DNA of 50,300 nt, taken from contig JAGBWX010000118.1 of assembly GCA_017629575.1 (NCBI GenBank), forward strand, positions 1 through 50,300. Direction: 5' to 3'. This DNA comes from Spirochaetales bacterium (GTDB lineage: Bacteria > Spirochaetota > Spirochaetia > Sphaerochaetales > Sphaerochaetaceae). Made by a program: the position numbers and the translations under genes. Each line of letters starts with the position of its first letter. The first letter of the stretch is position 1. Of this stretch, positions 45,714 through 48,470 are shown piece after piece. The notes beneath the pieces were generated by a model, which ran no database searches, had not been told where the DNA came from, and was given only the letters and a program-made list of their open reading frames with translations.

Positions 45714-46520
45714 TTAGTCAACGAGAACTACTTCACCGTTTGGATAGCGTTCTGCTACATATGCTGCAACCTTGTCACCCTTGAGAGCTTCTACGAGAGC
45801 CTTGATCGCAGGATTGTTTTCGTTTCCTTCCTTAACTGCGATAACGTTTACGTAAGGTGAAGATGCATCTTCAACGAAGAGACCGTCTCTTGTTGCAACG
45901 AGACCAGCTGGGATGGCGTAGTTACCGTTGATGATTGCGCCGTCAACATCCTGAAGAATTCTTGGGAGTGTTGCTGCTTCGATTTCTGAGAACTTGAGGT
46001 TCTTTGGGTTCTCTGCGATATCGATTGGAGTTGCTTCTAAGCCTGCGCCTTCCTTAAGAGTGATGAGACCTGCTGCCTGCAAGAGGAGAAGAGCTCTACC
46101 TTCGTTTGTTGGGTCATTAGGAATTGCGATTGTTGCACCGTTTGGGAGAGAAGCAATGTCTGAATACTTATTTGAATAGAGTGCGAATGGCTCTACGTGG
46201 ATGCCACCTGCGTTTACAAGGTGGAAACCATGTTCCTTGTTGAAGGAATCAAGATATGGGATATGCTGGAAGTAGTTAGCGTCAACTGAACCATCTTCTA
46301 CAACATTGTTTGGAACAACATAGTCTGTGAATTCAATAACTTCAAGTGTGATGCCCTGTGCTGCGAGATCGTCAACAATGAGGTTGAGAAGTACTGCATG
46401 TGGATCAGGAGTTGCTGCAACTTTAATCTTTGATGAAGATGCTGTCTCCTGAGCTGGCTGTGCGAAAAGTGATGTTGCGAGTACTGCGAGTACGAGAGCG
46501 ATTGTTAAAACCTTTTTCAT
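45714..46520 (-). CDS. metQ: Methionine ABC transporter substrate-binding protein
   Basis: MetQ (NlpA family) captures methionine for the MetNI importer. The 268-residue protein has a signal peptide MKKVLTIALVLAVLATSLFA and family motifs KVAATPDPHAVLL, FTDYVVPNNVVEDGSVDANY-FQHIPYLD and IAIPNDPTNEGRALLLLQ. No lipobox cysteine follows the signal peptide, although most MetQ proteins are lipoproteins. The start at 46520 is set by a GGAG site 6 nt upstream; an earlier in-frame codon lacks one. It is separated from metI by a terminator, a new promoter and a methionine-rich leader ORF, so it is controlled apart from metNI. Confidence 0.94.
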   Translation of the reverse strand: MKKVLTIALVLAVLATSLFAQPAQETASSSKIKVAATPDPHAVLLNLIVDDLAAQGITLEVIEFTDYVVPNNVVEDGSVDANYFQHIPYLDSFNKEHGFHLVNAGGIHVEPFALYSNKYSDIASLPNGATIAIPNDPTNEGRALLLLQAAGLITLKEGAGLEATPIDIAENPKNLKFSEIEAATLPRILQDVDGAIINGNYAIPAGLVATRDGLFVEDASSPYVNVIAVKEGNENNPAIKALVEALKGDKVAAYVAERYPNGEVVLVD

Positions 46521-46567
46521 ATTATTCTCCATTTGTTTTAAATACAAAGTATTTGCTTAGATAGACC

Positions 46568-46582
46568 TTCCCCTAGGGGGAA
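46568..46582 (-). promoter_or_regulatory. Second hairpin of the metQ leader
   Basis: TTCCCC pairs with GGGGAA over 6 bp with a three-base loop. The CCCCC strand can instead pair with CC-T-GGGGG at the end of the leader ORF (46630-46637), so two structures exclude each other. No T-run follows in the metQ direction, so the effect may be on translation, processing or Rho access, not intrinsic termination. Confidence 0.5.
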
Positions 46583-46624
46583 CTACAATTTTTTTAAAGA
46601 TGTGTGGTGATTATGAAAGAAATA

Positions 46625-46690
46625 TTATGCCCCCAGGGGCATCATCATAGAGGACATGCACATGTACATTGATGTTGTTTTTCTAGCCAT
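46625..46690 (-). CDS. Methionine-rich leader peptide of metQ
   Basis: A 21-codon ORF with seven Met codons (residues 1, 8, 10, 12, 15, 16, 17), including a run of three, ends 104 nt before metQ. It begins MARKTTSMYMCMSSMMMP and ends LGA before TAA. A full AGGAGG lies 8 nt upstream, and a promoter at 46722-46750 starts transcription about 25 nt before the ATG. The final Met codons run straight into a GC-rich palindrome (GCCCCTGGGGGC). This is the layout of an attenuator leader peptide in which ribosome stalling at Met codons signals methionine shortage. The protein itself need have no function. The role is inferred. Confidence 0.75.
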   Translation of the reverse strand: MARKTTSMYMCMSSMMMPLGA

Positions 46691-46721
46691 CTAGCATTCC
46701 TCCTGTTATATTTATGAATCC

Positions 46722-46750
46722 AATATACATAAAAGTGAAAGAATATGCAA
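46722..46750 (-). promoter_or_regulatory. Promoter of the metQ leader
   Basis: TTGCAT (46745-46750), a 17-nt spacer and TATATT (46722-46727) lie on the minus strand right after the metI terminator. The start of transcription is near 46,715, which gives a ~195-nt leader before metQ. Confidence 0.65.
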
Positions 46751-46797: not shown

Positions 46798-47469
46798 CTA
46801 TCTCTTGGAGATCATTTTTGCTGCTATTTTATTGCCAACAAGCTGAATAATCTCAACAAGAAGAATGATGATAACTACTGTGATAATCATGATATCGCTT
46901 CTAAATCGCTGATATCCATATCTGATTGCAAGGTCACCAAGACCACCACCGCCGATTGCGCCAGCCATAGCTGAGTAACCTATGAGGTTGATGATTGTGA
47001 GCGTAATTCCAGATACCAATGATGGCATTGCCTCTGGAATGAGAACTTTATATACAATCTGCCAATTTGTTGAACCCATAGCCTTTGCTGCCTGAACAAC
47101 GCCTGGATCAACCTCTCTGATGGCACTCTCGATAACTCTTGCAACAAAAGGAGCTGCTGCAATTGAAAGAGGGATAATTGTTGCCTTTGTTCCAATTGCT
47201 GTTCCAAGAATAATTCTTGAAAGAGGCATGATGAGAATCATGAGGATGATGAATGGGAAAGATCTCAAGATATTAACGATTCTTGAAAGAACTGCATTCA
47301 ACATTGGCTTTGGAAGGATTCCACCCTTCTCCTCTGAATCGGTAATGTAAAGAAGTACGCCAATAGGAAGTCCGAGAATTACAGAGAATAAGGTAGAGAA
47401 GGCTACCATCTGAATTGTCTGAATGAAAGGAGAGCTAACGAGCTTCCAGTATGTTGCAAGCTGATCCAT
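46798..47469 (-). CDS. metI: Methionine ABC transporter permease
   Basis: MetI is the membrane channel of the methionine importer. The 223-residue protein has about five hydrophobic spans and the EAA motif region QAAKAMGSTNWQIVYKVLIP, in which the usual leading EAA is not exact. N-terminal and C-terminal signatures ATYWKLVSSPFIQTIQMVAF and GGGGLGDLAIRYGYQRF are typical of MetI. Its ATG overlaps the metN stop at 47469, so it is translationally coupled to metN; the internal stop in metN could therefore lower MetI production. Confidence 0.95.
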   Translation of the reverse strand: MDQLATYWKLVSSPFIQTIQMVAFSTLFSVILGLPIGVLLYITDSEEKGGILPKPMLNAVLSRIVNILRSFPFIILMILIMPLSRIILGTAIGTKATIIPLSIAAAPFVARVIESAIREVDPGVVQAAKAMGSTNWQIVYKVLIPEAMPSLVSGITLTIINLIGYSAMAGAIGGGGLGDLAIRYGYQRFRSDIMIITVVIIILLVEIIQLVGNKIAAKMISKR

Positions 47470-48470
47470 TAATTTGCCTCCTTTGTCTCTTCGACGATTA
47501 CGCCAAGCTCTCTTAAGAGCTCAACAGACTTCTTTGCAATATCCTTATCTGGTCCAATGTCTGTTACCATTACACCAAGTTCTTCATCATTTACGCGCTG
47601 AACTCCAGCTGCTCTGATGTTGAATACAGCACCAACTTCCTTAGTTACCTTAGAGATGATTGGCTCGCCTGTCTTGTTGCCTCTGAAACGGAGAGTATAG
47701 TGACCTCCATCTTCGGACCATCTAACCATTGATGTCTTAACATTTGTAAGATTTGAAAGGAAGTCCTTTGTAACATCACTCTGTGGGTGTGCGAAGATAT
47801 CTGAAACAAGACCTTCTTCAACAACCTTTCCAGATTCGAGAACAGCTACTCTATCACAGGCATCGCGAACAACTTCCATCTGATGAGTAATCATTACAAC
47901 TGTAAGATTCATCTTCTTCTGGATTTCCTTGATAAGAGAAAGGATTGCTCATGTTGTCTGAGGGTCGAGTGCGCTTGTTGCTTCGTCGCAGAAAAGAATA
48001 TCTGGCTGAATTGCAAGAGCTCTAGCAATTGCGATTCTCTGCTTCTGTCCACCTGAGAGTGTTGATATTGGAGCATCTCCCCTTCCAGAGAGATCAACGA
48101 GCTCAAGAAGTTCTTCTACGCGCTTCTTAATAGCAACCTTATCCATCTTGCAGATTTCCATTGGGTATGCAATGTTCTCTGCTGCTGTGCGAGAAGAGAA
48201 GAGATTGAAATTCTGGAAAATCATGCCAATCTTTCTTCTTTCCTGGATCAGTTCTGCCTTAGAAAGGTTGTCTACTCTCTTATCTCCATAATAAACTTCG
48301 CCCTGGTCTGGCTTTTCCAGCATTGATATAAGGCGCACAAGTGTACTCTTTCCTGCACCTGAGCGACCAATAATTCCATATACTGTATTAGAAGGAATAT
48401 TCAGTGAAACATCTTCAACAGCATGAAGATCTCCATATACTCTTCTAAGATTCTTTAACTTGATTTCCAT
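47469..48470 (-). pseudogene. metN: Methionine ABC transporter ATPase, interrupted by in-frame TGA
   Basis: MetN is the ATPase of the methionine importer. The 5-prime part (48470-47949) has Walker A GRSGAGKST, the signature LSGGQKQR and Walker B ILFCDEATSALDP. The reading then meets TGA at 47949-47951. It continues in the same frame with AILSLIKEIQKKMN and the H-loop THQMEVV, then the C-terminal regulatory NIL/ACT-like domain to 47469. Without the TGA the protein would have 333 residues, normal for MetN. The TGA replaces what is usually Arg after SALDPQTT; one base change from CGA or AGA explains it. It may be a fresh mutation, a sequence error, or read-through. Confidence 0.85.

Follow-up and report, generated by a model that had tools for sequence, protein, structure and literature searches.

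The stretch of DNA analysed here (the window, 50,300 nucleotides) is part of a spirochaete MAG of 1.41 Mb that is 85% complete. On the minus strand, metI and metQ are separated by a gap that holds a probable promoter, a short open reading frame (ORF) with its own Shine-Dalgarno sequence, and two stem-loops. In the direction of transcription, the features are as follows:

46798..47469, minus strand: metI (NCBIfam NF008049, MetI), the upstream gene, with its own terminator
46795-46770, minus strand: terminator of metI, from the terminator scan
46722..46750, minus strand: probable promoter TTGCAT-17-TATATT, read directly (TTGCAT 46750-46745, TATATT 46727-46722)
46698..46704, minus strand: leader Shine-Dalgarno AGGAGG(A), with AGGAGG at 46704-46699 and the 5' arm of helix P1, GGAGGA, at 46703-46698
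46625..46690, minus strand: Met leader ORF, MARKTTSMYMCMSSMMMPLGA*, 21 codons, read directly and conserved
46640..46669, minus strand: control region with Met codons 8, 10, 12 and the run 15-16-17, read from the ORF
46649..46654, minus strand: 3' arm of P1, the anti-Shine-Dalgarno UCCUCU inside the ORF, from the own-versus-swapped pairing test
46627..46642, minus strand: hairpin hp1, ATGCCC-CTGG-GGGCAT, which extends over the last codons and the stop; terminator-like in the scan
46587..46626, minus strand: U-rich stretch passing into a C/A-rich one, 40 nt without G; either a terminator tail or, possibly, a Rho site
46568..46582, minus strand: hp2, the second stem-loop, UUCCCCCUAGGGGAA, read directly; not universal
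46526..46530, minus strand: metQ Shine-Dalgarno GGAGA, read directly; no specific pairing partner
45714..46520, minus strand: metQ, methionine-binding lipoprotein of the NlpA family (PF03180, E 2.5e-95; NCBIfam MetQ)

The leader ORF contains seven ATG triplets (codons 1, 8, 10, 12, 15, 16 and 17). With a Met frequency of 2.5% in the neighbouring proteins, the probability of at least six Met in 20 codons is about 6e-6, and just one of the 508 window ATG ORFs of 12-30 aa, namely the metQ leader, has at least six internal Met. The proposed promoter is absent from the sigma-70 scan listing of the window; in the upstream regions of relatives, TTGCAT followed after 17 or 18 nt by TATATT or CATAAT recurs. 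A previous, sequence-only reading of this DNA had pointed out the promoter, the AGGAGG, the 21-codon ORF with seven ATG and a GC hairpin before metQ, and all of these are confirmed in position, with one correction: the GC palindrome that was said to follow directly after the ORF does form a hairpin, which overlaps the last five codons and the stop. In metN (window 47469-48470, minus strand), we noticed one in-frame TGA at 47949-47951 (DPQTT*AIL), the rest of the frame being intact. Other reading frames of the window use TGA as an ordinary stop, and the one in metN represents a point mutation or an assembly error.

All 46 metQ loci recovered in the genus possess the leader ORF, which ends 77-127 nt upstream of metQ. 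This conservation is the decisive point showing that the leader is not a product of chance, and it bears out the claim that a Met-codon leader peptide belongs to metQ, both the ORF and its Met codons being kept in every one of these loci. A covariance model of the leader was searched in the genomes of the genus and of the family. It gave a single strong match beside metQ in 46 of 48 genus genomes, the remaining two being without clear metQ; matches in the genus with E above 0.001 lay in coding sequence or came without the leader ORF and were counted as chance. Altogether, the model matched in 80 of 139 genomes and 8 of 22 genera of the order, which contains only the family Sphaerochaetaceae. 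Further genera of the family (g2, g7, g12, g13, g14 and g21) have the same leader. A second covariance model, run against the remainder of 395 class-level genomes, detected nothing convincing outside the family, and two matches with E 0.002-0.006 were taken as chance. In loci without the leader, metQ usually starts a few tens of bases after metI.

The N-terminal half of the peptide is freely variable among the genus loci, and its C-terminal half reads M-x-M-[SFLA]-S-M-M-(M)-P-x-[RWG]-A*. The Met run comprises two, three or four residues or takes the form M-C-M; MMMP and MMMMR versions occur, and M-C-M-P is present in most g21 leaders. Each of 81 leaders, 17-28 aa in length, carries 3-8 internal Met (mean 5.3), and Met makes up 27% of their residues.

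The leader is not confined to the typical metI-metQ gap. It had been proposed to act on metQ separately from metNI, and this agrees with its presence at metQ loci without a preceding metNI (e.g. L008-L012). Further matches of the model are located upstream of a second, divergent metQ with an M20 peptidase gene behind it (L219, L220, L229-L231, L245), a metN-metI-metQ-M20 cluster (L236), an ABC operon of a family-5 solute-binding protein (SBP5) and peptide permease (L235, L237), an operon of an iron-type alcohol dehydrogenase gene and one resembling methionine aminotransferase (L238), and metA, encoding homoserine acyltransferase (L239; PF04204 E 3e-116). Occurrence with metQ in loci devoid of adjoining metNI, together with copies elsewhere, ties the leader to methionine supply and not to one locus. 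As a separate observation, the second MetQ (L219:738-1637, minus strand; also L220, L229, L230, L231, L245) matches the NlpA/MetQ profile in permuted order: its residues 29-170 correspond to profile positions 99-236, and residues about 197-295 to the start of the models. This order suggests that the predicted protein beside the M20 peptidase is a circularly permuted binding protein.

Two conserved helices were recognized in the leader RNA. In the first one (P1), the leader Shine-Dalgarno with downstream bases (e.g. GGAGGACAU) is paired with the codons before the last Met run (AUG UCC UCC). Over the 81 leaders, the mean duplex energy with the own partner is -11.5 kcal/mol, compared to -8.9 kcal/mol with swapped partners (0 of 10000 permutations); the specificity holds in g1 alone and in g2 alone (0/10000 each) and in g21 (113/10000). 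In a scan of about 2,100 window pairs, P1 is the lone strong outlier (t = -11.7). It has 6 pairs in the window and 8-13 in most relatives; roughly one leader in ten lacks it or has a weak form. Compensatory combinations are GUG UCC UCC with GGAGGACAC in L028, CAG CUC UCC with GGAGGGUUG in L230 and ACC UCU with AGGAGGU in L191. Amino acids shift along with the pairing (Met to Val or Gln; Ser, Phe or Leu), so it is the pairing that constrains the codons. An alignment-based covariation count for P1 is supportive and weaker, since only the innermost pairs align.

The second helix, hp1, has the consensus AUGCCC-N4-GGGCAU with bases near-invariant in 77 distinct leaders. One pair has changed in a compensatory way, from C-G to G-C in L240, and one C-G has become U-G upstream of metA. 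In L030, L114, L212 and L240 the stop codon has moved into the loop and the hairpin is kept; selection therefore acts on the RNA hairpin and not on the final RA residues. Together with its U-rich tail hp1 scores as terminator-like, and the U tract begins about 4 bases beyond the stem, which would make it a weak intrinsic terminator. Positions 20-49 after the hp1 start contain 4% G, 46% U and 22% C (81 leaders), this share of C not exceeding the genome average of 23%. In minimum-energy folds, P1 is formed in 71 and hp1 in 78 of the 81 leaders; the whole-leader fold energy of the window carries no signal (z 0.35). The sequence-only reading contains no P1, and its remark that no T-run follows the second stem applies to hp2 and misses hp1, which with its tail AATATTTCTT is terminator-like in the window scan.

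That reading had further proposed a switch in which the G-run of hp1 pairs either locally or with the C-run of hp2. We reject it as a general mechanism, as the pairing is not conserved. Stem-loop hp2 is present in the window and many g1 loci; it is missing in several g2 loci and upstream of metA, and lacks the C-run in the L008-L012/L015/L018 group. Fold energies of the linker are near those of shuffled sequences (mean z -0.46 in g1). Alignment of relatives, which had been recommended, gives a divided answer: the Met-rich ORF and hp1 are kept, the hp2 pairing is not.

Methionine control is commonly ascribed to SAM riboswitches, T-boxes or MetJ, and the SAM-I riboswitch and T-box are the usual bacterial RNA regulators of methionine genes. 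Rfam models applied to the metQ upstream region at gathering and relaxed thresholds produced only chance-level matches. A SAM riboswitch at metQ was dismissed, there being no gathering match to RF00162 or other SAM families, and so was a T-box (no RF00230 match). As positive control, SAM-I (RF00162) was detected upstream of metK in the window's genome (L241, G000:C116). SAM-I is also located before genes that, judged by eye only, resemble N-formylglutamate amidohydrolase in G039 (L242, L243).

We propose, as the best explanation overall, that metQ is probably controlled by a cis-acting, ribosome-dependent methionine attenuator. That the leader is a methionine-sensing leader-peptide regulator appears very likely to us; that it works by ending transcription at hp1 or shortly beyond it has, in our judgement, an even chance of being correct. 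Comparison reveals the Met-rich ORF, P1 on its own Shine-Dalgarno, hp1, the U-rich tail and the association with methionine genes. Several properties of attenuators are found here: a short ORF led by a Shine-Dalgarno, in which codons of the regulated amino acid abound, a position before methionine genes that is conserved in relatives, and conserved hairpins (P1, hp1) that a stalled ribosome can disturb. A mutually exclusive antiterminator, which also characterizes transcriptional attenuators, was not found, and the pairing scan of leaders yielded no covarying alternative pairing of this kind. The sensing part is well supported by this anatomy, while the output step, be it hp1 acting as terminator or Rho, is what we infer.

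The mechanism might operate as follows. When Met-tRNA is short, the ribosome would stall on the Met codons that flank the 3' arm of P1 and enter hp1 (AUG-CCC). It would cover the 3' strand of P1 and the 5' arm of hp1, both helices would open and the polymerase would read into metQ. With ample Met-tRNA, the ribosome would complete the ORF and leave, P1 would close and no further ribosome would load. At this point, hp1 and the U-rich tail, possibly with the help of Rho, would halt transcription before metQ. In untranslated or vacated leader RNA, P1 and hp1 are predicted to fold together, with the Shine-Dalgarno shut and the terminator-like hairpin formed. As a net result, metQ would be on in methionine shortage and off in plenty. 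Besides the late start of the U tract, the lack of a conserved antiterminator and the short P1 of the window, two more points count against such an attenuator. A ribosome that finishes the ORF also covers hp1, and methionine shortage also limits initiator fMet-tRNA and should lower translation of the leader.

The sensor could be the same and the output different. Termination might depend on Rho acting in the G-free, pyrimidine-rich tract, hp1 being a mere pause or boundary. We consider this possible but rather unlikely. Rho is encoded in the genome (TIGR00767 E 4e-191), the tract is poor in G as described above, and in mycobacteria, polyY stretches that are candidate Rho sites accompany cys leader peptides lacking terminators (PMC1262725). 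On the other hand, the C content of the tract is no higher than average, a ribosome halted in the Met run would reach no further than about hp1, leaving the tract uncovered, and the conservation of hp1 followed by U also speaks against hp1 as a mere boundary. Alternatively, the output might be translational, as in erm and cat leaders, with the leader anti-Shine-Dalgarno or hp2 blocking the metQ Shine-Dalgarno unless the ribosome stalls; the hp1/hp2 switch belongs to this group of models. The anti-Shine-Dalgarno can indeed pair with the metQ Shine-Dalgarno (mean -7.2 kcal/mol), and in the window, hp1 and hp2 are complementary to each other. But the own metQ Shine-Dalgarno pairs no better than swapped ones (1692/5000), no partner of it stands out in the pairing scan and hp2 is not universal. 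An erm/cat-type attenuator was rejected for lack of a specific or covarying partner of the metQ Shine-Dalgarno, and we regard translational output in general as improbable.

Two other readings concern the peptide itself. TnaC and the SAM-dependent arrest of plant CGS1 are comparison cases for nascent-peptide arrest, in which the Met-rich chain would stall the ribosome in response to free methionine or SAM and not for want of charged tRNA. The nearly invariant C-terminal S-M-M-(M)-P would fit such an arrest. The freedom of the remaining peptide and of the Met run (two, three, four or M-C-M; MMMP or MMMMR) would not, and the invariance of CCC is accounted for by hp1; we regard arrest as improbable, too. 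Finally, Met-x-Met patterns can bind copper, and the ORF might encode a functional small Met-rich protein, metal-binding for example, that neighbours metQ by chance. An unconserved N-terminal half, a length varying from 17 to 28 aa, covarying RNA helices within the ORF and copies always upstream of transport or metabolic genes leave very little room for this idea.

Returning to the methionine attenuator, we also examined Met-rich leaders in other bacteria. In Clostridia, Met/Cys-rich ORFs led by a Shine-Dalgarno occur before metN or metQ (e.g. L057 of Gemmiger formicilis, L086 of Anaerocolumna aminovalerica, L088, L106, L107, L111), and each of seven clostridial leaders examined in detail is followed by a canonical terminator of hairpin plus U-run. 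Among 29 metN loci of the family of L086, not selected for presence of a leader, 7 have a Met/Cys-rich ORF and a downstream terminator-like site, compared to 1 of 680 shuffled upstream regions. These clostridial leaders resemble the spirochaete one in having a short Met-rich ORF with Shine-Dalgarno directly before methionine ABC genes, and differ from it by their canonical intrinsic terminators and the absence of the MMMP/hp1 motif. Having no motif in common, the two are presumably convergent. As predicted from sequence, the clostridial leaders lend support to a wider occurrence of methionine-codon attenuation. Clostridial loci with a Met/Cys-rich ORF and a terminator-like hairpin upstream of metN or metQ, leaders that are not in Rfam, are L057, L060, L086, L088, L106, L107, L111, L263, L264, L271, L274, L275, L282 and L289.

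Some further observations come from Treponema. In a Treponema MAG (L052), a Shine-Dalgarno-led ORF MTKYFEKLVRENFRNGVMCLCILSK* lies about 200 nt upstream of metQ. Its codons AUGUGCCUCUGC are complementary to its own Shine-Dalgarno GGAGGCA, and it is possibly a Cys/Met leader of similar design. Just upstream of other Treponema metQ genes (L040, L047, with close variants in L046 and L054), a palindrome like TACCTAGTTGCTAGGTA beside the promoter is possibly an operator.

Leader-peptide attenuation is textbook knowledge for Trp, His, Leu, Thr, Phe and Ile/Val, and to our knowledge methionine is hardly represented among the amino acids with leader peptides. Because methionine is also the single amino acid required for initiation, its sensing by translation looks paradoxical. 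In a family of gut and environmental spirochaetes the cells probably read methionine supply from the movement of ribosomes through a Met-codon ORF. If true, a methionine leader regulon in one spirochaete family, together with unrelated clostridial attenuators, would show that this route is in use. P1 offers a concrete design of a latch, and the covariance model and peptide motif make this class of leaders searchable. More tentatively, we imagine a family-wide regulon whose sensing codons lie on both sides of the strand that closes off the ribosome site of the leader itself. Stalling would then open the switch and admit further ribosomes (a self-latching device), charging of both initiator and elongator tRNA-Met could be sensed, and the principle would have originated independently in spirochaetes and Clostridia.

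Taken together, the leader is real, conserved and specific, and it is probably a variant of leader-peptide attenuation. With amino-acid attenuators (trp, his, leu, thr, phe, ilv; actinobacterial cys) it shares a short Shine-Dalgarno-led ORF with cognate codons and a hairpin at the ORF end, and in the E. coli trp leader the own ribosome site is also sequestered. None of the Rfam leader models matches the spirochaete leader. In contrast to classic attenuators, methionine would be the residue sensed, a distinct antiterminator/terminator pair is lacking, hp1 extends over the last codons and the stop, and the 3' arm of P1 lies between Met clusters.

A full-text literature search, with subscription titles mostly outside it and priority therefore not certain, returned a single methionine leader annotation, metL of Streptomyces lividans TK24, proposed as a leader peptide upstream of metNIQ (PMC8079986). 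It resembles the spirochaete leader in serving the same transporter and in having no clear terminator. It differs in being annotated from sequence only, in its peptide MSTTSDRTPATEATTTPGARCMCRRMCAF with only two internal Met, which bears no resemblance to the spirochaete peptide, in its leaderless transcript and in having no reported comparative support (PMC8079986). For methionine operons, a comparative study of Actinobacteria found no conserved RNA structure; the actinobacterial cys leaders, described as lacking an obvious terminator and bearing a candidate Rho-binding polyY tract, are similar to the spirochaete leader in these two respects and in their codons for a sulfur amino acid, and differ from it in that the codons are those of cysteine and the genes are other ones (PMC1262725).
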